Source of the DNA: Ulota crispa
Lineage: Eukaryota > Streptophyta > Bryopsida > Orthotrichales > Orthotrichaceae
Assembly: GCA_963920765.1 (NCBI GenBank)
Contig: OY987245.1
Location: 22,708,727-22,772,726, forward strand
Length of the DNA stretch: 64,000 nucleotides
Reading direction: 5' to 3'
The notes under the pieces are model-generated. The model did not search any database. It was not told where the DNA came from and worked only from the letters and a program-made list of their open reading frames with translations. Below, piece by piece: positions 5,265 through 62,368 of the stretch (position 1 is the first letter of the stretch; every line of letters begins with the position of its first letter). The translations under genes were made by a program, and so were the position numbers.

Positions 5265-5576
5265 AGAACTTTTGCGTTTAATATACATTTTCCATTTGGT
5301 ACATGCGTGATAATGCTACGTGGAAGTTACCCGTAGAATTTCAAGGAATCTTCCCATGACAGAATTTCCATCATCCAATCATGCATTGACAGTAACTTTG
5401 CAGTGTGTAAGTTTCGTGAGTGTATCAGCAATGGCAAAAGGCTTTTCTATTTTGGAGCTCTTCAATGACTAGAAAATGTGGAGTCTCTGTCAATGTACTT
5501 AGAAGTAGACTTAATGTTTGTCTTTATCAACAACGCCAAATTGTACACTGACTTGTCTGACAGCTGGCCTCCTTAA

Positions 5577-6501
5577 CCCCTAAAGGACCATGGCCTTTAT
5601 TTTGTCAAAAGACACTCAAAACTGCCACCTCTATGGCAAAGAGTAAAAAAGTTTGAAAATCAAGCATTTTGCATATCTAACCATAGGATCTTGTGCTAGA
5701 CTACTATAAGAATGTGTCCTACAAAACTCAAGAACTTTGACCGCACAGATTGGAAGATATATGCATTTAAAGTGTAAAAAATAGTTTTTTTTGCACCTTG
5801 CTTGACTAGATTTTTTAACTTTGAACATTTTTAACTTAAAACTTTTGCTCCATAGAGTTTGGAATTCTATTTTTGCATGGTGGGAAGTTGAGTTGGTAAT
5901 CTTGAGAAAAAATAAATAAATAAATAAAACTTAATTTTCATTCTTTAAAAAATCATTAGGTAGAAGAAGGTATGAGATTGAAGAAAAACTTAAATTGCTA
6001 ATAACCCTGCAATGGAATTGAAATGCAATAATCCCAATGGTAAGATTGTTCTAGAAAGCAAATTTCACCCTCTCCAACAATTTTTTTTGAAAAAATGTTA
6101 AAATTGCATTCAAAAATGAAGTTTATAAGTTATTTTTTCAAGAAGATGCTTGAGTTGCCCGAAAAACAAGATTGTCCATAACTTTCTCATAACTAGTCCA
6201 AACAGAATGAATCAAAGCTTCAAATGTAGAAAAAGTTATAATCTATAAGAAAAATAAGATAAATTTCTTTTTTCAAGTTTTTTCCAGAATTTTTTTTGCT
6301 GCCCCTAGTCCCCAAATTTGTGCTTATTTGGGCATAACTTTTGCTCCCTGGCATCAGTTGGAATAAAAATTATATTCCCCAAAAGCTAATGTGTTTTTCT
6401 ATCTTCAAAAAAAGTTTCAAAAAATCAAGACAAAAATTGAGGCCGTAGGTACCTGCCCGAAATCCCATTTGTCCCCTGAAGGGACAACGGTCCTTTAGGG
6501 G
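5577..6501 (-). mobile_element. TTAA element, family T1, copy a (925 bp, non-autonomous)
   Basis: Flanked by TTAA at 5573-5576 and 6502-6505. The left end is CCCCTAAAGGACCATGGCC; the right end, reverse complemented, is CCCCTAAAGGACCGTTGTCC. No coding capacity. Four further copies lie at 17916, 39697, 45748 and 50543 (897-932 bp); this one is in the opposite orientation to them, since its right end carries the shared subterminal stretch GGGCAGGTACCTACGG (GGGCATGTACCTATGG in other copies). TTAA duplication plus CCC termini is the piggyBac pattern; Kolobok elements also use TTAA. Confidence 0.85.
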
Positions 6502-6670
6502 TTAAAGGTTCTTGAAAAGCCATGAAGCTAAAAAGTGACTCCTTCATGTTTAGAATTGACAGAGAATAGTACTTGTATTGCATTGTTGTCAGCTCGGATT
6601 TTCCTATGTCAATTTTTTGTCAATTCAACCAGGCTTTCCTTATTGTGTACTATCATACAACTTCACACAA

Positions 6671-17643: not shown

Positions 17644-17915
17644 TAAGTTATTCTTCACGCGAGTGACCCAGGGCGCCAAAGCCTCTGCGATCAGCTTTTG
17701 GGAGAGTCTTACTGATGTGGCGTAATCTCATTTGTCATAAACTGCTATAATTGTATATCCATCAGTGATCTCTAGTGTGTGATTTTTCATAATTCCCCAT
17801 GAAGGCTCGGGATTAGTATACAATGTGTTTCCAAAAAGTTTGGATTGAGGGCTAGCCTATGGTTTTTAACCAAGGTACACGATTGGGTCTCATTTTTAGG
17901 AGTTTGGGGGTTTAA

Positions 17916-18833
17916 CCCCTAAAGGACTAATTGTCCCCCGAGAGAACAAATGGACCTTGGGCATGTACCTATGACTAAACCAATTTTTATAAATTTTTGA
18001 ATTTTTTTGAGGTTGGTGGGGAATTCAAAAATTTATGTGTACATCTAATTTTTTTCTTCATTTTGACATTTATTGAAGAAGTTATGCATGATTTTTTGAA
18101 AAACAAAGGAGGGTAGGCAATTTGTGCAGACCATAAAACTTCTTTAAAATTTGCATTTAAAATAAATAACAATTTCAAATTGATTTTTTAAATTTCTATA
18201 TATGTGGAAAGTTTTGAATCATTCAATTTTGATTAATGAGTGAGAAGTTTTAGTTTGCGGATAAGTATGGAACTCCCAAACCTCCATTCCTTTTGCCCCT
18301 TGTTAAATTTGGTACTTTTATTTTTTTTTACTTTTTTTTTCAAGTGGTAGTAGACTAAGATTCCTTGGTTTTCACTATTTGGATCAAAGCAACTCATATT
18401 TCTCAATTTTACATAAATCCTCCAATCTAGTCTAGTGTATATGCAAATTTCATGGCCTTACAACATTGCAGGATTTTACAAAGTATGATCCACACCTCCA
18501 ATTCATTTGAAAATTCTCCCACACATACCTAACTTGGTCTTCAACATGAAGAAAATAAACCTCAAAGTTTCTAGAGCAATTTTTTTTGATATTGGAGCAA
18601 TCAAAGGCTTCTGAAATTTTTGGCCAGTAGGGAAACAAAACTTTTCTTTGCACTTTGGATGTCAATATCTCACTTTAGAATGATCTGATTTTTTTTTCAC
18701 AAGTACCTCCCATAGTCTAGGGCAAGATCGTACAGATGAATTTTCAAAAAACTTTTTTACCTTGGTGCTTATTCTCCCAAAAGTGACCATTTTCAACAAT
18801 TTTCATAGAAAAATGGGCTTGGTCCTTTAGGGG
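17916..18833 (+). mobile_element. TTAA element, family T1, copy b (918 bp)
   Basis: TTAA at 17912-17915 and 18834-18837; ends CCCCTAAAGGACTAATTG and, inverted, CCCCTAAAGGACCAAGCC. Shares the subterminal GGGCATGTACCTATG with the other T1 copies. No coding capacity. Confidence 0.88.
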
Positions 18834-18842
18834 TTAAACTTT

Positions 18843-29597: not shown

Positions 29598-31556
29598 TTA
29601 GTCAACCTCTTCAATTGTTGGTCCAGCAGCTCCTCCTCCTGTGTTTGTTCCACCACCATATCCACTAGAGGGCATAGGACCCGCACCTCCTCCTCCGCCT
29701 CCTTGGTACATACGTGAAATTATGGGATTGCAAACATTCTCTATTTCTTTTTGTTTGTCTTCAAATTCGTCAACCTCGGCCAATTGGTTGGCATCCAACC
29801 AAGCAATAGCATCATTCACAGCCTTCTCCAACTTTTGCTTATCGTCGCTACTTAATTGATTTGAGATCTTTTCATCTTTGACGGTGTTCCTCATGTTGTA
29901 GGCATAGTTCTCTAGCCCATTCTTGGCATCAACCTTCTTCTTGACCTCTTCATCCTCATTCTTGTACCTTTCTGCATCTTGCACCATCTTTTCAATATCT
30001 TCCTTGCTCAACCTACCCTTGTCATTTGTAATTGTGATCTTATTCTTTACACCTGCCGTCTTGTCCTCAGCCGAAACATTCAAGATGCCGTTAGCATCAA
30101 TATCAAAGCATACATTGATTTGAGGTACACCCCTCGGAGCAGGTGGAATACCAGCAAGCTCAAATTTTCCCAATAAATTGTTATCCCTAGTTTTTGCTCG
30201 CTCCCCTTCAAAAACTTGAATGAGCACACCTGGTTGATTGTCGGCATATGTTGAGAACACTTGCTCTTTCTTTGTGGGGATTGTTGTATTCCTAGGAATA
30301 AGAGTGGTCATTACACCACCAGCAGTTTCAAGACCAAGGCTAAGAGGAGTAACATCCAATAGCAATAGATCTTGCACCTTTTGATTTCCCTCACCACTAA
30401 GAATGGCAGCCTGAACCGCTGCCCCATATGCAACTGCTTCGTCAGGATTAATACTCTTGCATAACTCCTTTCCATTGAAGAAATCTTGGAGAAGGCTTTG
30501 CACTTTGGGAATCCGAGTAGATCCACCAACAAGGACAACTTCATGCACTTGACCCTTGTCCATTTTTGCATCCCTCAAACACTTTTCTACAGGCTCCATG
30601 CACTTACGAAAAAGGTCCATGTTTAACTCTTCAAATCTAGCTCTTGTAATAGTGGAGTAGAAATCTACGCCTTCATATAAAGAATCAATCTCAATAGTTG
30701 TTTGTGCAGTTGCTGATAATGTTCTTTTAGCCCTCTCGGCTGCTGTCCGTAAGCGACGAAGGGCTCGTGCATTACCAGTAATATCCTTCTTATATTTTCG
30801 TTTAAATTCTTGGACAAAGTGGTTCACTACCCTATTGTCAAAATCTTCTCCACCAAGATGTGTGTCGCCAGCAGTTGCTTTTACCTCAAAAATTCCTTCT
30901 TCAATGGTCAACAATGACACATCAAATGTACCACCACCAAGGTCAAAAATCAAGATGTTCTTTTCACCTGTTGATTGACCTTTCTTATCCAAACCATAAG
31001 CAATAGCTGCAGCCGTGGGCTCGTTGATAATGCGTTGCACATTAAGGCCAGCAATGGCACCTGCATCTTTAGTAGCTTGCCTTTGCGAGTCATTGAAATA
31101 TGCAGGTACAGTGACAACCGCATTTTTCACATTCCTACCAAGAAAAGCCTCCGCGATCTCCTTCATTTTAATCAGTACCATTGACGAAACCTCTTCGGCA
31201 GCAAATTGTTTCAACTCACCTTTGTAATTCACAACAATGATTGGTTTATTCCCTGGTCCTGCAATCACCTTGAACGGCCACAACTTCATATCACTTTGTA
31301 CAGAGGCATCATCAAATCGTCGTCCAATTAGCCGCTTTGCATCAAACACGGTGTTGGTTGGATTCATTGCCACTTGATTCTTTGCTGCATCACCAATCAA
31401 TCTCTCTGTGTCCGAGAATGCAACATATGACGGGGTTGTGCGGTTTCCTTGATCATTTGCAATAATCTCCACTCGGTCATGTTGCCATACTCCCACACAA
31501 CTATATGTGGTTCCTAAGTCAATACCAATAGATGGTCCTTCGCCCTTGTTAGCCAT
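29598..31556 (-). CDS. HSP70: Cytosolic/nuclear HSP70 (Hsc70-type chaperone), intronless
   Basis: A single uninterrupted frame of 652 codons. The protein has [16 protein letters not shown] near residue 10 (phosphate binding), [14 protein letters not shown] near 200, [14 protein letters not shown] near 340, a standard substrate-binding domain, a Gly-rich tail ([18 protein letters not shown]) and C-terminal GPTIEEVD. The EEVD end marks it as cytosolic/nuclear and able to bind TPR co-chaperones. Length and motifs are typical of eukaryotic Hsp70, and I see no missing key residue. Many angiosperm cytosolic HSC70 genes have an intron near codon 72; this one has none, which fits a stress-induced copy. 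A heat-shock element lies about 365 bp upstream. Confidence 0.98.
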
Positions 31557-32379
31557 ATTTCAAGCACTCAATGCAATCTCCTCAAAAACTCAATCCTCTC
31601 AATCAATCAACCAATGCAACTCCTCCTCCAAAATTACTCCAAACCGAACTTTTCAATTGCTAATCCTCAATGCTCCGTCACACTAAATCAACAAAAACAA
31701 TCACAGAAATTGCTAAAACCTTCACCAATATTTTGCTTTGATATCAAACAATTGTGCAAAGAGCATAAAAAATTACGAGCATTAAATTAAGCACTTCAAA
31801 GAATTGTGTAAAGTATATAAAAACATTCCAAATAATCACTCCAAATAAACACTCAATCACAAATCTCAAGCTTCAAGATCGGCAATATATGCTATGCTCA
31901 TGGAAGAAGGAAAAGTAGTTTCTGGAGTCTTCCGGAAGCATAGTTGCAAGACAACGATGGATATCTCTATATTCTCCTAGATGATTCCATGTGCATCTAC
32001 AAAATGTATCTAATTTTGTAGATATGGTAGTTACATCCTCCTTCTGGTGCAAACAACATCTATTTGTCCATCTGGACATACCCTCCAAAGGGCGTCCATG
32101 GGGCTGTTTTTTTTTGTCTCTACCTCATCCATTTGAGTGAGTAGTTCATTTGCATACAATCATCCTTAAGATGAATATAATTTGTGTACCATACTACCAT
32201 TTTGAATGTTAATCATTTATCATCCATCATTGTCACCCATATGGATGAATTCTGTTGGAAAATCCTCCTTCAGAGTTATAATTTGTTGCTCGGTTGCAAC
32301 TTCAGTGGCACTTTTTATCCTGACAAGTGAGTCCAAGCAGGCTTGTGCTTCGCACAAGCAGTGCACGACACCGAGCGCC
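31557..32379. promoter_or_regulatory. Divergent intergenic region between HSP70 and the secreted-protein gene
   Basis: About 820 bp separate the HSP70 start (minus strand) from the proposed start of the next gene (plus strand). It contains the heat-shock element at 31920-31937 and no reading frame of note, so it presumably holds both promoters and any 5' untranslated introns. Confidence 0.55.
31920..31937. promoter_or_regulatory. Heat-shock element
   Basis: TTCTGGAGTCTTCCGGAA consists of four alternating units, TTC-GAG-TTC-GAA, at exact 5-bp spacing; three fit the consensus and one (GAG for GAA) is off by a base. Such arrays bind trimeric heat-shock factor. The site lies roughly 365 bp upstream of the HSP70 start codon. 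Confidence 0.7.
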
Positions 32380-36355: not shown

Positions 36356-37499
36356 TTAGTATCCTCCTTTGAGGTCATTGACGACATCGTAGGGAATGGG
36401 AGTGACAGTCTCTAGGGTGGAGGAATCAAGGACAAATCCAGCTCTGGGACCGGCAGGTTGGCGCTTGAGGTCCACAGTCTCCCCTCTCGCTTTAGCCTCG
36501 GCCTTCTTGATGTCATTGCTCTTGCGCCGCTCCAGGAACTCCTCCCGGCAACGTGAAGGCTGCACATGCTCAATGCGCACATGAAGTCGCTTCTGAATGA
36601 TCCTGTTTCCCACCTGCACCAATCAAACCAAAACAAATTACAGGTTTATCCTTGACTACCGCCACAAATACACATGACATACAAGCGAAAACACAACCTT
36701 ACGTAAAAGATAAGCAACAAACAAATAAACGAACAAATCCATAGGAAAAAAAAAGCCCCTTTCCATCCAAACATAAATGTTAGAAGTGCGTGTATAGTTG
36801 TTCAAAGAGAGCTACATGAGTATTATTAAGTGAAAAGCATATCAGACTCATTACAAAGTACAGACAAAACCATGCAAAAATTCCAGAAGATGCTTGAATA
36901 CAAGGCTTAAGCGCCTCCATTCAGAGGCTCCAGAGCTGTGTTCAAGTAAGGAAACCCTAGGTCGCGAAGCAAGTAATATAATGGAACTTCAAACCCCTAG
37001 AGGAAAAGGCAGATGCCACTTTCGGTGAAGAGGATAAAAGGTAGAGTGCAAACAAGGCACCAAGCTGCTAATTATCACAAAGTTCATTCACCAGTTGACG
37101 ATTAGCAGAGATGGCAACGGCTGAAACCCTAGACGCTTTTTTTCGCTTTGAAGCGATATTAAGCAGCACTTGCAAGCGCTGTAATAGCGTGACGGAACCC
37201 CAATCCCGGAAGGCCGAGCAAAGGGATGAGTGAAAGGGAGCGAAAGAGAGCAGCGTGCGTACCTGCTTGTTCATCACGACACCGACAGCGCGCTTGGTGA
37301 CGTTCCAGACGATGCCTGTGCGTCCGTGGTAGAACTTGTGCGGCATGCCCTTGTGGATAGCTCCGTTCACCTTGATGTCCACATAGTCGCCAATCTTGAA
37401 GGTTCGCAGGTAGACCGTCAAGGGGATGTAACCTTTGTGCCTGAAGGGCCTGGAGAACAGGTCCCTCGTGCGGGAACGGAGCCCATGACCAGCCGGCAT
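36356..37499 (-). CDS. RPL21: 60S ribosomal protein L21 (eL21), copy 1
   Basis: Two exons on the minus strand: 37499-37263 (79 codons) and 36613-36356 (85 codons plus TAA), with a 649-bp phase-0 GT-AG intron. The 164-residue product begins [15 protein letters not shown] and contains [57 protein letters not shown] and ends [18 protein letters not shown], the standard eL21 sequence and length. It is a component of the large cytosolic ribosomal subunit. An upstream ATG in the leader (37579-37581) opens a different frame and is unlikely to be used. The protein is identical to copy 2 at 61225. Confidence 0.97.
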
Positions 37500-37584
37500 C
37501 GCTGCTGCTTGGTGATGCGATCTCTGCACACACGCAGAAACGAGAGAAAAAGAGAAAGGGCGTCGTGTGCAGCGCTTGCATCTT

Positions 37585-37594
37585 AAACCCTAAA
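37585..37594 (-). promoter_or_regulatory. Telo-box of RPL21 copy 1
   Basis: AAACCCTAAA, about 85 bp upstream of the start codon. Telo-boxes are common in promoters or leaders of plant ribosomal protein genes. A GC-rich GGGCC-containing stretch (37663-37686) upstream resembles site II elements. Confidence 0.7.
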
Positions 37595-37741
37595 CTTGCT
37601 CCATCGGGTTGAAATTAGGTCTGGTCTTACCGAAGCTCATTCCGTGGCTTGGGTAACGTTTGTTGGTCCGGGCCGGGCCGGGGCCGGTTCTCTTTCCTTG
37701 GTGTGAAAGTTCTCTTATGTTGTTATGTACCTTGTACAGTA

Positions 37742-38924
37742 CCCAAAAGAAAGAGTACATAACATCTTTTATGGCGTCTAAACAAGTACGTATAACTCAT
37801 GTATAATAAAGAATACAAGTGACATTTCAATTTCGCATTTTTAATATGCAATTATCATGCAATCTTGATCAAGTATATCAAATTTTAGTTACCAAAATCC
37901 AAAATCCTATTTTTGGTAAATGGTTTTGTGTCAAAATCATGGTTTTACAAAAAATTGATTAATAAATAGTGGTGATGAACTTTTGAGATTTGGTTGCATG
38001 GATATGTAGGAGTCATCCATACACACATCTTTCTTTCAAACAAACATTTCCAAAAAGTTTCAAAATTCCTTCTATAGAGATATTAATGTTAGATCATGAC
38101 TAAATTTAGTAGACTACATATTTCTTCTTGGAAATTAGTTTTTGGCAAAAAAAACATATCATCATGTTTAAAGTTACAAACTTAATTGCAATGTATGAGT
38201 CAAATAACAAAAACTAATTTTCATGAAGAAATATGTATTTTACTAAATTTGGTCATGATCACCCTAACATTAAAATCTCTATAGAAGGAATTTTGAATTT
38301 TATTGGAAATGTTTGTTTGAAAGGAAGATGTGCGTATGATGACTCTTGCATAAGGTGTGTACACCCATAAGCATCAATCTAAGGGTTTTGAACAAGATGA
38401 GTATCAATAAATAACTAGCAAATCATAGGATCCTATTAGGAACAGAAAAATAATGAGTTGGCACTTTTGAATGTATTATTTGGATATTGTGAGAATAAGT
38501 TATGAATTTTTAAAGAGCAAACTGCCATTGCACCCATAACCACTTTCAAGATTTCATGTTCACATGTAATACATCCTTGTCATTACACCTATCCACTTCC
38601 ACAGATTTTCCAATATTTTCAAAGGTGACGCTTATGGGGACACTGACGCTTATGAATGTACATACCTTATCTATGCAATCAAATCTCAATAATTCATCAC
38701 CACTATTTATTAATCAATTTTCTTGTAAAACCATGATTTTGACACAAAACCATTTACCAAAAATAGGATTTTGGGTTTTTGTAATTGAAATTTGATATGC
38801 TTGATCAAGATTGCATGAGAATTGCATATTAAAAATGTAAGAATGAAATGTCACTTATATTCTTTGTTATACGTACTTCTTTGGATGCCATACAAGGGTG
38901 GTATGTAGACTTTCTTGAGGGTAC
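37742..38924. mobile_element. Mutator-like/foldback element 1 of a tandem pair (1183 bp)
   Basis: Starts CCCAAAAGAAAGAGTACAT and ends with the inverse of a GTACCCTCAAGAAAG sequence. The two halves are inverted copies of several hundred bp (for example CAAAATCATGGTTTTAC, TTGATCAAG and TCTATAGA parts on each side). TGTACAGTA lies on both sides (37733-37741 and 38925-38933). A TA element (38353-38667) sits inside one arm. Confidence 0.75.
38353..38667. mobile_element. TA-TSD element (AGGTAGG family), copy b (315 bp), nested
   Basis: Ends AGGTGTGTACACCCATAAGC and, inverted, AGGTATGTACATTCATAAGC; TA at 38351-38352 and 38668-38669. Internally it matches 58839-59152 (for example AATAGGATCCTA-like, CAAGATTTCATGTTCACATG and ATAACC segments) in inverted orientation. 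Confidence 0.8.
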
Positions 38925-41849: not shown

Positions 41850-42377
41850 TACCAGTGATGCTTGGACAAGATCCACCTTTATAAAAGTAAAATTTGGAAA
41901 GTGTCAAAGTCTCACTTTCTTTTGTTGTTTCAAAGTTTGATTAAATGGAGTGTTTGTTTATGATCAATGCTTGGATATGATAAACCTTTCTTTCTTGCCA
42001 AAGACATTGACCTTATCCAAACATCACTATAATATGAAGTTTATTGCTTGAGGAGATTTTTGAGCTTCAGCAACTCTCACAAAACATAACTTCTCAAAAA
42101 AACATGATCTCCAAACAAAAGTGAATATGTAATAATAGAAGATGTATCCAAAAGGTGTCATAGTTTCTCCTTTAAGTAGACTTGGGGTCACTCGAGCAGA
42201 GACAAACAATATGAGTTTAATCTCTTGAAGTAAAAGTCACTTTTAAAAGTAAAAGTAACTCTTTGCATCTCATTAATGAATCCAATGAGCTTAATAAGCT
42301 CTTGACTCCAACTACTAGCCTTTAGACCTAGCAACCCTAGGAACCAACACAAATGAAGCAAGGTGCCTAATTTTTAA

Positions 42378-42617
42378 CCCCTGAGCGCCCAAGGGGCCAA
42401 AATATGGCCTCTTGGTTTTGAAAAATTTCCTTATTTGACCATTATAATCTTTTCAATGGTATAGTGAAAGGACGTATCATTTTCCTTGAAGCTCCAGGCC
42501 TATGTTCAATACTAATTAGTATAGTCAAATTTTGTGAATCTCTTTTAAGTGATAATTTGATTGGAATGAGTTCCAAAGGGTTTGGATTTGAGTATACTTA
42601 TGCTGGGCGCTCAAGGG
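42378..42617. mobile_element. TTAA element, family T3, copy a (240 bp)
   Basis: TTAA at 42374-42377 and 42618-42621; ends CCCCTGAGCGCCCAAGG and, inverted, CCCTTGAGCGCCCAGC. Homologous along its length to 59423-59668 (for example TGGTATAGTGAAAGGAC against TGGTACAGTCAAAGGAC). No coding capacity. Confidence 0.87.
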
Positions 42618-42621
42618 TTAA

Positions 42622-45456: not shown

Positions 45457-45747
45457 ATTTTCATTACAAGCTATAAAACTCACACTTCTGACATCAACAA
45501 AATTAGGTTGAAGTGTTTTTGATAATAAAGCTAAACTATGCATAATATCAACCCCAAAAAAATAGTGAATTTGAATTGAGATTATTTATTAAAATTTATT
45601 AAATACCATTTCTAGTGTTTCCAAGTATATTTTAGCATCCATGTCATAAAAATCACAAAGTTCCTAGTTTAAATTCCAAAATTATCAAATTTTATTTGAC
45701 CTATTTTATCATTTAGTGCAAATTTGGCTAAATTTCCAAAAGATTAA

Positions 45748-46667
45748 CCCCTAAAGGATTGAAGTCCCCTTGGAGGACAAATGGGATTTTGGGCATGTAC
45801 CTATGGCTAATTTACTTTTTGTGATTTTCTGAAACTTTTATAGAAGGTGGGGAATTCAAAAATCTACGTGGGCATCTAATTTTTTCTTCATTCTGACATT
45901 TGATGAAGAAGTTATGCATGAATTTATGAAAAACAGTGTTTGAGGGGCAGCCAAAAACTTCTTTAAAAATTTCATTTTTTTCAAATAAAAATCTGAAATA
46001 GGTTCTTTAGACTTATATAGACGTGGGGAGCTTTGAATCATTCAATTTTGATACATGAGATGAAAGATGAGGAGTTTATGTTTGCGGGCAATTCTAGATT
46101 CTCTACTCTAAAATAAGCTTTGAAGTCCTTTATTTTACTCAATTTTCAATATTTTGAAAAAAAAACAAAACCAAAGGATGTAGATTGTTTATCAAAACAT
46201 TATAACCGTTGGGATTTGCAATTTTCATTTTTATTATTAAATTCTTAACAATTTGGAGTTTTGACTCATTCTCTACTTCTTTTTACTTACTATTTTTTCC
46301 CATGTGTTGTATAGTTCCAACTAATTTGAAAATTCTCCCACACATACCTAACTTGGTCTCCTACATGGGAAAAATAAACCTCAACTCTGTGTAGAGTAAT
46401 TTTTTTGATCTAAGAGTGGTCAATGCCTTCTGAAATTTCTGGGCAGCAGCAAAAAAAATCTCATCTCCGCAATTCAGATGTAAATATCTCACTTGTTTTT
46501 GTGTAGATTGAGCTAAATTTTTTACCACGTGTACCTCTTGTAGTCTACTATAAGATCTTATAGTTGAATTCTTGTAAAAAACTTTTTTTCTTACCATTGT
46601 ACTTGCTTCCCCAAAAGTGGCAGGTTTTTGTGTTTTTCACAAAAAAAATGGCTTAGTCTTTTAGGGG
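45748..46667 (+). mobile_element. TTAA element, family T1, copy d (920 bp)
   Basis: TTAA at 45744-45747 and 46668-46671; ends CCCCTAAAGGATTGAAGTCC and, inverted, CCCCTAAAAGACTAAGCC. Shares GGGCATGTACCTATGGC with other T1 copies. No coding capacity. Confidence 0.88.
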
Positions 46668-46671
46668 TTAA

Positions 46672-48409: not shown

Positions 48410-50254
48410 ATGGAAGGTACTTTGAGTAGACGACCAGGAGTTTGGGAGCGTCGTGCGCTTGCCGATACGTCCAGCAGCGGTGGGCATCAGCACCGCAACG
48501 TCCAAGGTAAGCTCTTTTCGTTCCCCTTTTCTCTACCAACTACTTTCCTGGCCAATTCCGAGCATAGATCTGATGGGAACTCCATCTCCTGTCGGGTTTT
48601 AGGTTGTGTGCAAGGGTAGAGAATTGCAACGTGCACTGATCCTTCCAACGGTTATCGTGCAGAGGAACCCAGGCAAAGGCCTCCATCACATGGTGCTGAC
48701 GTCCAGTATTGCAAGCGTCAGTACGATGTAATTGTGACCTATATTCGGTATGCCCTCCAGTGTTGGGGACCCCTGGACGAGGCTCCTCTTTCATACTGGA
48801 TGGATGCTACCGTCAATCCCTGGACTGGATCTTCGGCGATGATACAGGTGAGGCCGGAGTTGCAACGGGTGCTGACGCGCGCGAAGATCCTGTGTGAAAA
48901 CTGTTGCGGGGAATCCCCTCCGCTGAAGGCAGCTCTTCGGCATGCCGAGCGATCGGAAGCATTCGCGGATGTTTTGGCAGAAATCCAGTGGTGCATATCG
49001 GTGGTGCACAATGGCAGCATTTGTAAGAATGTGAAGGACAGGTGGGCGCCGGAGCTCAAAGATTTCCCATGGCAAGCTAAACTTGGGCGCCATGAGCAGC
49101 TGTTGCTGCAAAGAGCAGAGCAAGAAGACTGGCTGGAGATGATGCAAAAGCTCGGGAGATGGAATGCGGGTCACCTGTGCAGTGCTCAAGATTGTGGCAA
49201 TTCGCATGCTCAGGGAGGTGCAGAGTACTGTCTCTCAACCCAGATGTTGGCAAGAATACTTGCGGCGCAGGACTTGAGGGTTGCGCATGGCTACGATTCC
49301 TTCCTGTGGAGTTTTGACAAACAAGTGCTGCAGTATGGCCCGACATTAGGATCGGGTGCCTTTGGCGCTGTTTCGGAGGTGACGTGGCTGGGATGCAAGT
49401 ACGCGCAGAAAGTCTTTAATCCTGCCGGACTCCATTCCTTACAGGCTGAGGCGGATGCTTTAGCCAAAATGAATCACCCTCACGTTGTGAAAGTGTTTGC
49501 GCACTCTGAAGACTCCCTTCTCATGGATTTGATGTGTATGGATCTGCACAAGTTCATGAAGATGCGAAGGAAGAACAGACCCTCTAGGGTTGAGCCTTTC
49601 TCGCTTGCTGCGGCGATCGACCTGATGCTCCAGATTGCAGATGCCGTGAGCCACATGCACTCTCACAATGTGGCACATCGCGATCTCAAATCATCGAACA
49701 TTCTTGTGAACCCGTTCAACATGCCGGGTCTGGATGGGGACGATGATGACGAGGATGGGTTTGTGTTTGCAAAGATTGCGGATTTTGGGATGGCGAAGGT
49801 GAAGCGAGAGATAACGCGCAACTCTCACCTGACGCACAACGTGGGCACAAGGAAGTGGATGGCTCCGGAGATCTTTGGAGCGAACCTAGACGATGATCCT
49901 TTGGAAGAGGCCTATCCGATGAAAGCTGACGTGTACAGCTTTGGAATCATTTGCTTTGAAATCTTGTCAGGCGAGGAACCATACAGCGGTGTGCCGCTAC
50001 GTGAGTTGTACTCCAAGCTGACAGCTCAAGTTCCATTGCGGCCACGACTACCAAGAAGTTGCCCCACGGGGTTGGCTTCCCTGATTTGTGCATGCTGGGA
50101 TGCGGATCCACGAAAGCGACCGGCATTTGCAGATGTGTGTCGTGTGTTGAGATATCTGAAAGGCCTATCAACATTGACCGACGGTACAGAGTTCTACTTA
50201 GTTTGCCTATATTCTCTTTCTGTCTCTTTCAGCCCAGTACGTGTTATTCATTAA
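48410..50254 (+). CDS. Protein kinase with an N-terminal helical region; C-terminus disrupted by a transposon
   Basis: Two exons: 48410-48506 and 48663-50254, with a 156-bp GTAAGC...GTGCAG intron, giving 562 residues as read. Exon 1 starts MEGTLSRRPGVWERR. Residues about 95-205 are helical and amphipathic with Cys-Cys and Trp residues (RVLTRAKILCENCCG; EIQWCISVVHNG; LLLQRAEQEDWLEMMQKL). The kinase domain covers about 255-533: GSGAFG (262-267), Lys in YAQKVF, Glu in LQAEADAL, HRDLKSSN (371-378), an acidic insert (GDDDDEDG), DFGMAKV (406-412), MAPEIF, DVYSFGI and RKRPAF. All catalytic residues are present, so it is predicted active and of the TKL/Ser-Thr type (HRDLKSSN, GTRKWMAPE). The last residues (VRVIH and the stop) lie inside the element starting at 50238, so the native end is lost or further exons lie beyond. 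A potential intron (donor 50183, acceptor TTTCAG 50232) could also remove part of the tail. High G+C sets the gene off from its surroundings. Confidence 0.85.
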
Positions 50255-50523: not shown

Positions 50524-50542
50524 CCAGATTGTTCCTTCTTAA

Positions 50543-51439
50543 CCCCTAAAAGACCAGACCCCCTTTTTTAGAAACATAGCAATTTTGGGCAAGTACCTAT
50601 GATTGGAGTTTTTCATATTTTAGCCTAAAATTTTAATATAATGTGGGGACAGGGTTTATCTTTCATATGCACAAAATTTGAATAAGAAGTTATAGCCTAA
50701 TATGTTGCTTTTTATGTTCAAAGGGCACTCTGGGCAGATTTTTAAAAATCACTTTTTTCAAAAACAAAAATTTTAAATTGGTTTAGGAGATTTATGTGAA
50801 TGTAGGAAGCTTTGAATTATTCTGTTTAGATCAACGAGATGAAAGTTATGAGGATTTTTTGTTTGCGGGCAGTTACGGATTCTCTACTCCAAAATAAACT
50901 TTGAAAACCTTTATTTTTACTCAATTTTCAACATTTTGGAAAAAAAACAAAACAAAAGGATGAATATTGTTTATGACAACATTATGACCATTGGTATTGG
51001 CATTTTTCATTTCCATAATTATATTCTTAACAATTTAGTGTTTTGAATCATTCTCTACTTCTTTATACTTACTAATTTTTTTCCATATGTTATACAACTC
51101 CAAATGATTTAAAACTTTTTTGACATGTACTTTACTTAGGCGGAATAAGGAATTTTGAGAAGTACCACCCACATGGCCTTTTTTCCTTAGGTATTTCACC
51201 TTATGAAGGGTAGCTGCCCGATTTTTCACAAGACGTTTTTGAATATTCAAACCATTCTAACTTCTAATCCATGTGGTGGAAAACTCTGAAATTTTTTCCA
51301 CATCTTCTAAAACCATTCTTCTACAAGATCAAACGGTCACATATGCATAAAAGTGTTTTTGTTTTCAAATTTGGTTGATGCTCTAAAAATGGCAGTTTTG
51401 AAGAGTTTTTGGTGAAAACTATGCTTGGTCCTTTAGGGG
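50543..51439 (+). mobile_element. TTAA element, family T1, copy e (897 bp)
   Basis: TTAA at 50539-50542 and 51440-51443; ends CCCCTAAAAGACCAGACC and, inverted, CCCCTAAAGGACCAAGC. The right TTAA is also the left TTAA of element T5. Confidence 0.87.
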
Positions 51440-51443
51440 TTAA

Positions 51444-54400
51444 CCCCTAAACGTCCACAGGGCTTTGTATGAGCCCTGCCGTAGAGTACTTCTACGGTGG
51501 CTTATTGCAAGCTAGAGGGAGGATGTGGTTGGCTAACCCTAATCAAACCATAATGATGAAATGCTTGTGTTCTTGTGACCTAATTGCAGGTTTTTGCGGA
51601 AAGATCGATTGAAGAACTTCAAAAGTTGTAGATGCATCTGATTGCATATAGGCATGGTGGGTGGCCCGGAAGAAAGCCAAGTATGCAATTTCCGTAGGGT
51701 CGCGGTGGCTGCCACTTGTGGTGGAGTATGTTGCGAGATGGCGGGTAGAGCACGAGAGATGGTGAGTTTGGTGCAAAAGGTGGCAGGTAAGTAGACATAC
51801 TAGAGAGATGGCAAGCGTTTTAGCTTTGCAAACGATTGCACCTGCAAGTCTTGCGCAGGATGCCCGCGGCCTTGCAGTTGTTCCCGTAGCCGTGGTAGCT
51901 AGCGATGTTGAGCAGGTGCGGCACATTTTCTTCTCTCTTGAGGAGGTTGCTTCTGTGGCTGGCTGCTTGTATAAGCAATGAAACCTGCAGTGTCACAATG
52001 GCTTGGGTGCAATTGACCTCAATGTAATGGTACGCTTGCGGTGATTCTTGAACAAATGTGGCTGGAATTGAGCAACCCTGCTAGATTTGAGCAACCTTGC
52101 TAAAATTGAGCAATTCTGTTTCCTTCAATGTTCATCATTCTAGATCTAGTGTCCACAAGCTGTCAATAGTGTAGGATAGTCCATGTTGACTCTAAATTTT
52201 TGAAGCCATTCTCTTATTACCTCAGAGAATTTGCCTTCCTTGGGAAGAAACTTCCCATACTACAGCGCATTAGCTCACAAAGATTGCAAAGTACCTCTTG
52301 ATATCATCGTCCACCCATTGGACTATGCATTTGTTTGTATTTGTTTGACTCTTGCTGAGTAGACCAATTTTTATTGCACTACAAAACATCTTTCACTTAT
52401 ACATATTTGTTTCCTTTCACAAAACTCTGACACCACGATAAGCACGTAGCACTACTTGGCAGGCATGGAAGTGATGTGCTTTCAGTTACGGTCATATGTG
52501 GTATTACAATGCTCACACAATGGCATCAATATTTGTAAGGCCTTCTAGGCTTGGGCATGGCAAATGTAGAGCTCCAATGTTCCAATTTTATGATGCTCAC
52601 AACAAAAGCACAATGTCTGCAAATTCTTTTTGAATCCGTATCAATATACTCTCCTTAGGTTTAGAGCCAAGAAAAGATCATTTTTTGGGGCAATTTGCAC
52701 TTGATGGGAATCTCAACAATTTCCATTGATTTTGGAGGGCTGTGAAGTTATAATTTCCAAATACAATAGGTACATGAATCGATAGCAACAGTATTTGGTG
52801 CTCAAGAGTCTTGTGAGTTGCCATAAATGAATAGTTTTTCAACAATGGACTCATCAATTTTGATGTTGGTCATAGTATAGTGCATGACACTTATAACCAA
52901 TAACTACTGGCCAAACAGTCAAGAAATACCAAGGTACAACACATATACCCATTAGCTCAAAAGTAATTCCACCACCCAACGGGACAAACCCTAAGCTTCA
53001 TCCTGATGGACTCAAAATTTTGATAACTATTTTTTGACAAAGCCTTTGGCTAACCACTTGAATTGGGAATTGTTGATTATAAGTGTCATGCACCGTATGA
53101 AAGAAAATTTACATGCTCATACTCCTCCAAGAGGCCATTTGGGTCATGGACATAGAGGTCTTCATGATACAATTATGATCCTCTTCATTTTCAATAAAGT
53201 ATTCGTTCAGCCTCTTTAGGAGTTACCGTTTCTTTTGTAGCTCAACACATGTATTGTTTTTTTGTCAAATCCACGGACAAAAAAAGTAGGTGCATCCTGA
53301 GACAAGCATGACTTTTATTTACATTTCAATTTTTCAAGGATACAAGGTTAGCCATAAGCTGGGGGTCAAGAAATTAACTATTGCTACATGAGCTCAATTC
53401 AAATTGCTGTACTGAGCACAAACAATCCCAAAGCAATGCAACAACAGCCCAAAGACTTTGACATGATTAATTCCATGAGTTCCTTGAAGTCTAAATCAAG
53501 GGAGCAACATGAGTCAAGGGTGGTCAGTTTGTGAAGGTTGAACAAACAGAACCTAATCATCACTTTTGTAAAGAAATTCTGAAAGCTCATGGTGTAGCCT
53601 TGATCCATCAAAAACAAGCTTAGATGGGAGTCAATGTTGATCCAGTAAGGATTTGTATTTTTTACCTGCATATGCATTCATATGCATTATTAGTAGAAGA
53701 TTTTACTACTCAAGTTGCATTATACTCATCACCAATATATTGCTGGAGTGCCAAAATAAAAAGAGAATTAACAATGGACACAACAGTATTGCTGCCAAGC
53801 AAAATTTGCAAGTCGTAACATTTTTCTTTAGTAGAAGATGGCCAACCCAAACAAAGAATCCGAATGCCTATCCACATAAACCTCATGACTAGGGCTACAA
53901 TCACGTACGCAGCTACAACTACTATAAAATCATGACCATAGGCATATCTTTGCTAACAACTTACAGAACTCATAGTTCTTCCACTACAATATCCTATGAC
54001 CAACAAGGACTACTGATAGTGCATGTGGATCTCTACTCTTTGCACAAAACATTGCCATCACCACGGCATGTTCACACCATCTTCCAGAAATACCATACAC
54101 CTTATCTGAGAATACTTAAAATGGGGGTGGGAGGTGAGAGTCTGAAGTTACAAATCAGAATAACAAGCTTTTAGTTCTCTTCATCTCAAAGATTGGTTCC
54201 AACGCTTGATGCTCAACCGTGATTTTTTCATACTCTCTCTCAGTTTATCACTAATGAAACAAAATAGCAACTAGTCTTGCCCCTACAAGCTAACTGGTCC
54301 AAGAAAATGAGACACTCTCCTTATTAAAATTCCCTTACACCACTAAAACTCCAACCACAAAGTTGGCTCTGCTCCATTGTACATTATGTAATCACACCAA

Positions 54401-55568
54401 GCTTCAAAATGCATTCAGAGGGAGAAACTAAAATCAAAGCTACATTCTCACTCTAGCTTTGTAAATGTCAAGAACAATAGAGCGTGCAAAAGAGATAGCT
54501 CCTTGGAAATAGATTTTCACATACAATTTTTCTAGTTACTGTGCTCATTACAACACAAGCAGTACGCAATTCTATAATGCATTAAATTTCAAATCCTTGC
54601 ATTTGTTTTTTGCTTAATACACTTGAAATGAATAAGTTCTGGCTCATTGAATCTTGCAAGCAAATTCAACATTCTAAAAGGTGATAAAAAGCCAGAGATT
54701 GCATCAGATTACACAAAAGTAGGTATGCTTCATCCGTCCAGATATGAAACAACATGCCGGTTATGAACATGACCCATGCAGGTTTATTCATCCGCGTTCA
54801 AGAGCCTAAAATTGGATCTCTTGCTATATAGCAAGGTTGTCAAGCATGAGGAGGAAGTTCTAGACTTAAATTGTAATACAGAATGGAACTAGGTCGCTCA
54901 CTATTCTTCTAAACCCTAAATCCAAGAAGCTTCTCACCTTGTTGCCAGCGCTGAGTGGTTTACGTTTTGGAGTACAACAGTACTAGACTCCTTTGTGTAG
55001 CAGCTATTCCAGGAGAAATACACTCTCTGTGTGCCACACTTCGTGAATTGTCCCCCTACCCACTCTTTCACGTTGGCCAGCACTTCTCCGCCCACCACAT
55101 TGCCGTCCTCAATAAGCTCCTCTAGAGATGTCAACTTCTTCCCTTGGTCCGGAGTAGTAACCTGACTTCAATGATTATATCATTTGCAGACGCCTTTGGA
55201 CCATCATCAGTGTTTCGCAGTTTTTTTTCTCACAATTCGTCTTTGTGCCACTTCTTTGTGCCAACCACATGAAGCACATCTTCCCCGCCAAAAAATTGGA
55301 ACTTTTGCCAGCGTGGAACTCTCGCAACCCAATCATCTTCCGGGTGAACACTCTCGCTCACAGATACATACACCGTAGCTGCAAAACAATACAAACGCTT
55401 CTTGATTGGTGCACGCTGATCTCCTGCAACCCTCAACTCTCTCAAACTCTCAAGGATAGTCTTAGTACAAACTCCTCCAAAATCCAACCAAATTGTGCTG
55501 GTGGAACTCTTGGAATAAGCAAAAATCCTCTTGTATTGGCCACATAGGGACACTTAGACGTTCAAGGG
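51444..55568 (-). mobile_element. piggyBac-like element T5 (4.1 kb) with transposase remains
   Basis: TTAA at 51440-51443 and 55569-55572; ends CCCCTAAACGTCCACAGG and, inverted, CCCTTGAACGTCTAAGTG match over the first 12-14 positions with few differences. It is long enough for an autonomous element, and its minus strand carries transposase-like remains running from near the right end (open frame 55553-55230) through the piggyBac signature at 53904-53399. Multiple stops and frame changes, and a small internal inverted duplication (52880-52896 against 53077-53093), show it is dead. Confidence 0.72.
53399..53904 (-). pseudogene. piggyBac transposase fragment (DDE_Tnp_1_7-like)
   Basis: Read on the minus strand, 53904-53710 gives MWIGIRILCLGWPSSTKEK and CYDLQILLG, then DEYNAT; about 100 codons on, 53677-53399 gives LFLMDQGYTMSFQNFFTK. 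piggyBac transposases have, in this order and spacing, a KPHKWGIK..L.D...GY...F.IY.G segment and a L...GY.L..DNFFTS.PL segment. In the second motif the catalytic Asp before NFFT is Gln here. Short length, stops and that change make it non-functional. Assignment rests on these two motifs only. Confidence 0.6.
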
Positions 55569-55572
55569 TTAA

Positions 55573-58475: not shown

Positions 58476-58838
58476 TATTGTACTTATGTGGAATTTTTTT
58501 GGAGGCAAATTCTTGTGGTCCCAACCCAACAAAGTACTCCCACACCATTTCTCTAATCAAATCTTCACCTTGAACATGATATTTGTTAATTTGGGAAAAT
58601 GTATTTTCCAACAAAAATTTTAGGAATTGAACTTTTGCATTTGTGAGAATATTTTGGTTATTTGAAGTGAGTTAATTGGTAGTTCCTTCAAGATATTTCA
58701 TCATTGATGTAAGGTCTTGAATCAATCATCTTAAAATTCACTCCTAAATCATTAAAAATCTCTTAAAACCATAAAATCCAAAAGTCCCAAAATTGCATTG
58801 AGATCCCTTCCCCCGTGCCATTTCAAAATCCACCTCTA

Positions 58839-59152
58839 AGGTAGGAACACCCATAAGCATTACTGTCTCCATAACCGTCACTTTTGAAATCTTGAAAAAT
58901 TTGTGGAAATGAATAGATGTAATTACAAGAATGTATAGCATGTGAACATGAAATCTTGAAAGTTGTTATGGGTACAATGGCAATTTACTCTTTAAAAATT
59001 CACAACTTGTTTTCACAGTATCCAAATAATACATTCAAAAGTGCAAACTCAATATTTTTCTGTACCTAATAGGATCCTATAATTTACTAGCTGTTTATTA
59101 ATACTCATCCTGTTCAAAACCCTTAGTTTGACGCTTATGGGTGCTCCTACTT
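58839..59152. mobile_element. TA-TSD element (AGGTAGG family), copy c (314 bp)
   Basis: TA at 58837-58838 and 59153-59154; ends AGGTAGGAACACCCATAAGC and, inverted, AAGTAGGAGCACCCATAAGC. Homologue of 38353-38667 in opposite orientation. Confidence 0.85.
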
Positions 59153-59422
59153 TAATTATGTAGAAGACCTCTTGAACTTTGTAGCTTGCTTTTCTCAAAG
59201 CGTTAGAAGGGATTTCAAACACGTTCAACACGACCCCATTTGCACTAAAGCTAGAACCTACAACCTTGGAACCACAACATGAAATATCAAAAAAATTCAT
59301 ATCAAACACTAACACATGGCCAGGTACATACCATGGTAGATTGCACATGTTCTGCCGTGCGAGCTCCTCCCGGCGCTGTTTTGGAATACAGTACTAAGAT
59401 TTTCTGGCAAACTTTTGATTAA

Positions 59423-61009: not shown

Positions 61010-61129
61010 GAGAACTTTCACACCAAGGAAAGAGAACCGGCCCCGGCCCGGCCCGGACCAACAAACGTTACCCAAGCCACGGAATGAGCTTCGGCAAGAC
61101 CAGACCTAATTTCAACCCGATGGAGCAAG

Positions 61130-61139
61130 TTTAGGGTTT
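61130..61139 (+). promoter_or_regulatory. Telo-box of RPL21 copy 2
   Basis: TTTAGGGTTT, the inverse form of AAACCCTAAA, at the same distance from the start codon as in copy 1. Confidence 0.7.
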
Positions 61140-61224
61140 AAGATGCAAGCGCTGCACACGACGCCCTTTCTCTTTTTCTCTCGTTTCTGCGTGTGTGCAG
61201 AGATCGCATCACCAAGCAGCAGCG

Positions 61225-62368
61225 ATGCCGGCTGGTCATGGGCTCCGTTCCCGCACGAGGGACCTGTTCTCCAGGCCCTTCAGGCACAAAGGTTACATCC
61301 CCTTGACGGTCTACCTGCGAACCTTCAAGATTGGCGACTATGTGGACATCAAGGTGAACGGAGCTATCCACAAGGGCATGCCGCACAAGTTCTACCACGG
61401 ACGCACAGGCATCGTCTGGAACGTCACCAAGCGCGCTGTCGGTGTCGTGATGAACAAGCAGGTACGCACGCTGCTCTCTTTCGCTCCCTTTCACTCATCC
61501 CTTTGCTCGGCCTTCCGGGATTGGGGTTCCGTCACGCTATTACAGCGCTTGCAAGTGCTGCTTAATATCGCTTCAAAGCGAAAAAAAGCGTCTAGGGTTT
61601 CAGCCGTTGCCATCTCTGCTAATCGTCAACTGGTGAATGAACTTTGTGATAATTAGCAGCTTGGTGCCTTGTTTGCACTCTACCTTTTATCCTCTTCACC
61701 GAAAGTGGCATCTGCCTTTTCCTCTAGGGGTTTGAAGTTCCATTATATTACTTGCTTCGCGACCTAGGGTTTCCTTACTTGAACACAGCTCTGGAGCCTC
61801 TGAATGGAGGCGCTTAAGCCTTGTATTCAAGCATCTTCTGGAATTTTTGCATGGTTTTGTCTGTACTTTGTAATGAGTCTGATATGCTTTTCACTTAATA
61901 ATACTCATGTAGCTCTCTTTGAACAACTATACACGCACTTCTAACATTTATGTTTGGATGGAAAGGGGCTTTTTTTTTCCTATGGATTTGTTCGTTTATT
62001 TGTTTGTTGCTTATCTTTTACGTAAGGTTGTGTTTTCGCTTGTATGTCATGTGTATTTGTGGCGGTAGTCAAGGATAAACCTGTAATTTGTTTTGGTTTG
62101 ATTGGTGCAGGTGGGAAACAGGATCATTCAGAAGCGACTTCATGTGCGCATTGAGCATGTGCAGCCTTCACGTTGCCGGGAGGAGTTCCTGGAGCGGCGC
62201 AAGAGCAATGACATCAAGAAGGCCGAGGCTAAAGCGAGAGGGGAGACTGTGGACCTCAAGCGCCAACCTGCCGGTCCCAGAGCTGGATTTGTCCTTGATT
62301 CCTCCACCCTAGAGACTGTCACTCCCATTCCCTACGATGTCGTCAATGACCTCAAAGGAGGATACTAA
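61225..62368 (+). CDS. RPL21: 60S ribosomal protein L21 (eL21), copy 2
   Basis: Exons 61225-61461 and 62111-62368 with a 649-bp intron. The 164-residue product is identical to copy 1, and the intron is the same length and sequence as far as I compared. Start chosen at MPAGHG, the conserved eL21 N-terminus; an upstream ATG at 61143 is out of frame. The leader is pyrimidine-rich (CCCTTTCTCTTTTTCTCTCG), typical of ribosomal protein genes. Both copies have intact frames and promoters and may both be expressed. Confidence 0.97.

Follow-up and report, generated by a model that had tools for sequence, protein, structure and literature searches.

The window, by which we mean the whole 64-kb stretch of DNA analysed here, carries an HSP70 gene at 29598-31559 on the minus strand, which runs in one open frame. 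Among the named rows of the 120 listed, the highest identities for HSP70 belong to moss proteins, with 95% in Ceratodon purpureus, 94% in Physcomitrium patens and up to 91% in Sphagnum; two metagenome proteins are at 96%, and some seed-plant proteins of greater length among the matches listed combine higher bit scores with lower identity. This one conserved gene places the host at the level of the mosses. A long open frame at 48620-50254 contains HRDLKSSNILV and presumably encodes a protein kinase, and the segments 37068-37614 and 61110-61656 form an inverted duplicate with identical ORF translations, which we take to be a piece of a ribosomal protein L21e gene. Regarding the assembly itself, four contig ends have been inspected: TTTAGGG repeats are present in C4 and C8, none has been seen in the 1.1 kb read of C3, and C1 is N where printed. 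Close to the kinase-like frame lies the TTAA-flanked element that is the subject of this report, with the following features.

50539..51443, no strand: neighbouring small TTAA element of 905 bp with ends CCCCTAAAAGACC / CCCCTAAAGGACC, having the TTAA at 51440-51443 in common with the element described here
51440..55572, minus strand: probable decayed piggyBac-family transposon, both TTAA included, delimited by its TIRs, by a second copy on contig C6 and by ends common to transposase-bearing elements
51440..51455, plus strand: left terminus TTAACCCCTAAACGTC, with homology to transposase copies at their 3' ends; 3' side of the gene
51458..51497, no strand: two palindromes just inside the left end, CAGGGCT-7-AGCCCTG and CCGTAGA-5-TCTACGG
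52876..53097, no strand: nested high-copy MITE of ~220 bp with ends GTGCATGACACTTATAA (52880-52896) and TTATAAGTGTCATGCAC (53077-53093), found in the C6 copy too
53543..53611, minus strand: putative remnant of the transposase gene, in the block of the second catalytic Asp: LMDQGYTMSFQNFFTKVMIRFCL, aligned by tblastx to LEHRGHTIVIDNFFTGIKLFMCL in the C5 relative
54939..55019, minus strand: putative N-terminal gene relic ISPGIAATQRSLVLLYSK opposite IPPGIASSQRSPIILRSK of the C1 relative (tblastx)
55557..55572, minus strand: right terminus, TTAACCCTTGAACGTC on the minus strand, on the 5' side of the gene

The preliminary description had reported TTAA on both sides together with CCC-starting TIRs, and both are indeed found: TTAA occupies 51440-51443 and 55569-55572, and the inward-reading imperfect inverted ends CCCCTAAACGTC / CCCTTGAACGTC are alike at 10 of 12 positions. 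Of the marks by which piggyBac is recognised, the 5'-CC..GG-3' termini are seen in these TIRs, and the TTAA target-site duplication is seen in the window element and in its C6 copy, where similarity stops. Across the 274.8 Mb of the genome, 1853 instances of the end pattern TTAACCCYTNAACGTC have been counted (913 + 940), compared with a single one of the backwards-read control, an excess far beyond chance. As the gene strand is minus, the left end corresponds to the 3' side of the gene; the right terminus shows homology to two relatives described below, C1 and C5, at their 5' ends. The palindromes inside the left end are candidate transposase-binding sites. The second of them (CCGTAGA-gtact-TCTACGG) reappears imperfectly, with altered letters, in some relatives (CCGTAT..ATACGG in L070, CATAGA..TCTATG in L055), and none has been found at that place in L068 and L071; in a scoring of palindromes the best case was L072, reached by 3 of 2000 shuffles, and the window copy scores lower.

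One second full-length copy has been obtained by DNA search, on the reverse strand of another contig (C6:3304541-3308929), with 89% and 91% identity to the window element over two pieces and similarity stopping at both TTAA sites. Near its left end, ~312 bp of another repeat have been inserted, copies of which also lie in the window at 38362-38653 and 58837-59154. Over 4058 aligned bases, 373 differences separate the two copies, transitions making up 278 of them, and no excess at third codon positions has been observed between them. The nested MITE is present in both copies, and hence it either entered before the copies separated or moved with the element. The first DNA search with the window element (40 of 984 candidates scored) was dominated by this MITE, whose part of the query was matched by 40 of 43 rows, and the two halves of the element were therefore searched apart. 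After removal of the MITE from the query, relatives with both ends have been recovered in L051 (5449 bp), L052 (1766 bp), L053 (1772 bp), L054 (1810 bp) and L055 (2422 bp); L052 and L053, which are 95.6% alike, also hold an interior block of the window element at 70-71% identity, and L068 (1816 bp) has mainly the right end in common with it. No recognisable transposase has been detected in L051-L055 or L068. The 5.4-kb L051 had been considered as a possible autonomous copy and was rejected, as it contains no transposase (best E 0.61).

To our knowledge, the piggyBac family is known mainly from animals and has hardly been documented in land plants. A search of this genome with the PF13843 profile has given at least 120 match rows with a best E of 1.3e-73 (116 scored of 528 first-look candidates; assembly of 274.8 Mb in 157 contigs), 10 of the 120 rows being free of stops, and no PF13843 signal has been obtained in any of 14 control genomes. 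None of the matches listed falls inside the 64-kb window. The transposases of L059 and L060 match those of piggyBac (6x67/6x68) and piggyBat (9c0f), whose structures are solved, and the catalytic DDD has been read by eye in the L059-piggyBat alignment; a homology search with L059 has returned 25 PF13843 proteins, the top eight at 46-50% identity and two named animal proteins at 33%. Ends have been sought for five other transposase copies, with both found for L057 and L058, the right end for L060 and no paired ends for L059 and L061. L057 and L058 (5.0 and 5.1 kb), which belong to another subfamily, have TTAACCCYT ends, and beyond these ends no further homology to the family of the window element has been seen. 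Equal-scoring PF13843 pairs of opposite orientation, 15-20 kb apart, occur at C7:18203169-18204302 / 18223004-18224137 and at C2:36765124-36766008 / 36779670-36780554, perhaps as inverted duplications.

The decisive link is provided by three transposase-bearing elements with the ends of the window element's family, C1:1176510-1184004 (7495 bp), C8:18113884-18120638 (6755 bp) and C5:5359822-5368417 (8597 bp). In all three of the subfamily elements examined at both ends, both are homologous to the family, and the transposase always lies on the strand that corresponds to minus in the window. The window copy directly matches both C5 ends, the C1 right end and the C8 left end, the rest being connected via family members. 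The C1 5' end is 80.6% identical to the window element's right end over 36 bp, and the C1 3' end matches family left ends (75.5% over 49 bp with L053), the window copy's own left end not passing against it; at the C8 right end, the right ends of L010, L052 and L055 pass and the window copy's own right end does not. A family left end has been found downstream of all six transposase copies fetched (C8, C5 and four more), and in five of the six it matches the window copy's own left end. The weakest, L074, has a best E of 2.6e-5 and starts at base 13, with the window copy's own end not passing, and the left end of L073 has TTAG instead of TTAA.

In C1 the transposase appears as two PF13843 matches without stops, and those of C8 and C5 have been identified by a piggyBac clade profile. 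On our own reading of the DNA, the C1 gene contains a GT-AG intron between ..SSQSQ and YVSKV.., and since the transposases of C1, C8 and C5 are all interrupted at one common place of the profile (about 151-156), this split is read as a putative common intron; C5 has one additional frame change in the 5' part of its gene. The catalytic DDD has been read by eye in C1 as TVDEIMV, MTDNFFT and GIDVVDQ, and the C-terminal cysteine-rich part of the profile is matched by C1 in another frame (E 2.7e-7). A protein search with the second C1 exon, in which 128 of 387 candidates were scored, has yielded at least 130 match rows; a hand count, to which some copies contribute two rows, puts 47 of these at an identity of 58% or above. 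Membership of the window element in the piggyBac superfamily is well supported by its ends and by these transposase-bearing relatives with family ends, the link being made within the genome through matching ends, the same gene orientation and two colinear relics.

Regarding the relics themselves, the preliminary description had seen a minus-strand frame with two ordered transposase motifs. Motifs and strand are present as described, and the single frame is not: the two motif ORFs (53399-53677 and 53710-53952) lie in different minus-strand frames, their starts being 275 bases apart, which is not a multiple of 3. A PF13843 match had been anticipated at 53400-53900, and neither motif ORF has given a Pfam match at E up to 10; among ten ORFs of the region no PF13843 has been found, with sub-threshold matches to unrelated families in two only. 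Six-frame HMMER searches of the window element and the C6 copy with profiles built from the genome's own transposases have given best E values of 0.14 (8 transposases) and 0.81 (18 sequences), and a further such profile gave a best E of 0.2, in the C6 copy and there on the wrong strand. In a frameshift-tolerant scan the score of the window copy was reached by a fraction of 0.08 of 300 shuffles and that of the C6 copy by 0.027, and 6 of 30 window tiles, the element's own included, equalled or exceeded the element's score. When the clade profile was used, the corresponding fractions of 200 shuffles were 0.025 (window copy, the best site being inside the nested MITE) and 0.095 (C6 copy, with 24.6 on the other strand against 20.7 on the gene strand), and over eight family members the share ranged from 0.025 to 0.70. 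The 5.1-kb L066 gave E 0.0084 in one transposase test and was reached by 0.70 of shuffles in another; a short cysteine-rich match in L056 (E 0.0027) has been set aside, as its position does not fit the gene order.

Following these negative profile tests, the interior of each copy, with the ends cut off, was compared by tblastx with C1, C8 and C5 against 300 dinucleotide shuffles. The best hit of the window copy has 29.0 bits, a value attained by 3 of 300 shuffles, and its best hit within the transposase frame has 25.4 bits (2 of 300). For the C6 copy the two values are 38.6 and 27.6 bits, each attained by 0 of 300 shuffles; the results of the two copies are not independent of each other, since the copies are homologous. 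None of 62 overlapping tiles elsewhere in the window reached 25.4 bits in the transposase frame; when any hit is counted, two overlapping window tiles stand at 46.9 bits, above both copies, by matching another part of the C5 element. The in-frame match is the NFFT relic at 53543-53611, which lies opposite GHTIV.DNFFTG and from which the second catalytic Asp is absent. The motif GYTMSFQNFFT of the preliminary description has accordingly held up as better than chance against same-family transposases (its score is attained by 2 of 300 shuffles in the window copy, by none of 300 in the C6 copy and by none of the 62 tiles). The other, GIRILC..LLG, has not: it is probably due to chance, since it crosses the split point shared by all three relatives and is absent from the same-family tblastx matches at E up to 1. 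An additional block, missed by that description, is the N-terminal relic at 54939-55019, which aligns to WIPPGIASSQRSPIILRSK of C1, a part that is probably coding in the relatives, as judged from their open frames. Both relics agree with the gene in order and strand. Taken together, one motif noticed earlier and one additional block make transposase remains in the window element probable.

The most serious alternative is a non-autonomous element with piggyBac ends only, whose unrelated interior never held a transposase and whose motifs arose by chance. Such an origin would agree with the non-significant profile tests and the missing codon-position bias, and the shorter relatives L052-L055 likewise have common ends, and some of them an interior block, without a recognisable transposase. 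However, two interior blocks match the gene of the same family on the right strand and in the right order, beyond all 300 shuffles in the C6 copy, and we regard this alternative as unlikely. A Kolobok element, which would duplicate the identical 4-bp target site, is very improbable: Kolobok ends have been described as 5'-RR..YY-3' (PMC9587614), whereas the ends here are CCC..GGG, as in piggyBac (PMC10045372), so that the CC..GG termini argue against it, and the transposase found between family ends is of the PF13843 type (C1) or recognised by the piggyBac clade profile (C8, C5). A chance pairing of TTAA-containing sequence without any transposon can practically be dismissed, since TTAA is common in the window (383 sites) but a second full-length copy has the same limits and 1853 end-pattern copies stand against 1 reversed.

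We consider it likely that the locus holds a dead copy of a moss piggyBac family, which derives from a longer ancestor, has kept relics of the transposase gene and has spread as a ~4 kb element. The claim of a dead piggyBac-like element with minus-strand transposase remains is supported by same-genome relatives with matching ends and orientation and by the two colinear relics, and TTAA-flanked relatives, whose presence in the genome had been proposed as a check, exist as the C6 copy, L051-L055 and the transposase-bearing elements with matching ends. The ancestor would have been a longer element (the relatives measure 6.8-8.6 kb) with an intron-containing DDD transposase gene on the minus strand. 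By analogy with the superfamily, its transposase would have acted by binding the ends, excising the element and integrating it at TTAA. The lineage may then have lost a large portion of the gene's 5' half and, judging from two copies, have spread at least once more as a ~4 kb element with transposase supplied from elsewhere, before decaying by mutations, mostly transitions; this order of loss and spread is the one that we infer.

The copy had also been taken for a plausible relative of the source that moved the small TTAA elements of the window, but their ends differ: small elements end in CCCCTAAARGAYY (also given as TTAACCCCTAAAGGACC), and the window element's family ends in CCCYTNAACG... 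Four elements of 905-933 bp with ends TTAACCCCTAAARGAYY lie in the window, at 5573-6505, 17912-18837, 45744-46671 and 50539-51443. In the genome, the small-element end type TTAACCCYTAAAGGACC has 9236 exact copies and TTAACCCYTNANCGNCC has 7030, neither being found reversed, which gives 16,266 exact piggyBac-type termini for the two patterns combined versus 0. No transposase bearing small-element ends has been identified in this analysis of the genome. A further TTAA element of 248 bp (42374-42621) has ends TTAACCCCTGAGCGCCC / TTAACCCTTGAGCGCCC, end types which recur among the first 100 places listed. One may postulate, with about even confidence, that piggyBac in this moss is a major, long-resident and diversified cut-and-paste group, which comprises several transposase subfamilies, one of them with a conserved intron, and has driven thousands of non-autonomous TTAA elements. 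If this holds true, piggyBac would rank among the leading groups of DNA transposons in the genome of a land plant.

The superfamily itself is known; what is notable is its host and its abundance. A 2022 review of land-plant transposons lists six TIR superfamilies, without mention of piggyBac in the available excerpts of its text (PMC9033089), another names PiggyBac among the superfamilies when discussing plants (PMC10794571), and a fern genome paper gives 1230 PiggyBac annotations amounting to 0.00% of the genome (PMC6890710). No paper on piggyBac in a moss has been found in the open-licence literature searched; an apparent case (PMC10619864) was rejected, its available text referring to 'expression piggybacking'. 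The at least 120 PF13843 rows and 16,266 termini offer a concrete case for asking at what time land plants acquired or retained the superfamily, and the same moss is a case for asking whether piggyBac moves the TTAA MITEs of plants.

Compared with known systems, the family resembles piggyBac of Trichoplusia ni (6x67/6x68) and piggyBat of Myotis (9c0f) in its TTAA target, its CC..GG ends and the PF13843-type DDD transposase of its relatives. Among the proteins compared, the closest to the C1 transposase are the metagenome PF13843 proteins P0002, P0003 and P0004 (55-57% identity). Kolobok is alike in its TTAA duplication and differs in its RR..YY termini (PMC9587614). The T. ni element has been described with a single ORF of 594 aa, catalytic residues D268, D346 and D447 and a 19-bp palindromic-like internal repeat bound by the C-terminal domain (PMC7351741), to which the left-end palindromes may be a parallel. 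Unlike piggyBac and piggyBat, the family resides in a moss, its transposase-bearing members measure 6.8-8.6 kb and have a gene that is interrupted within the catalytic region, and the copy in the window is dead.
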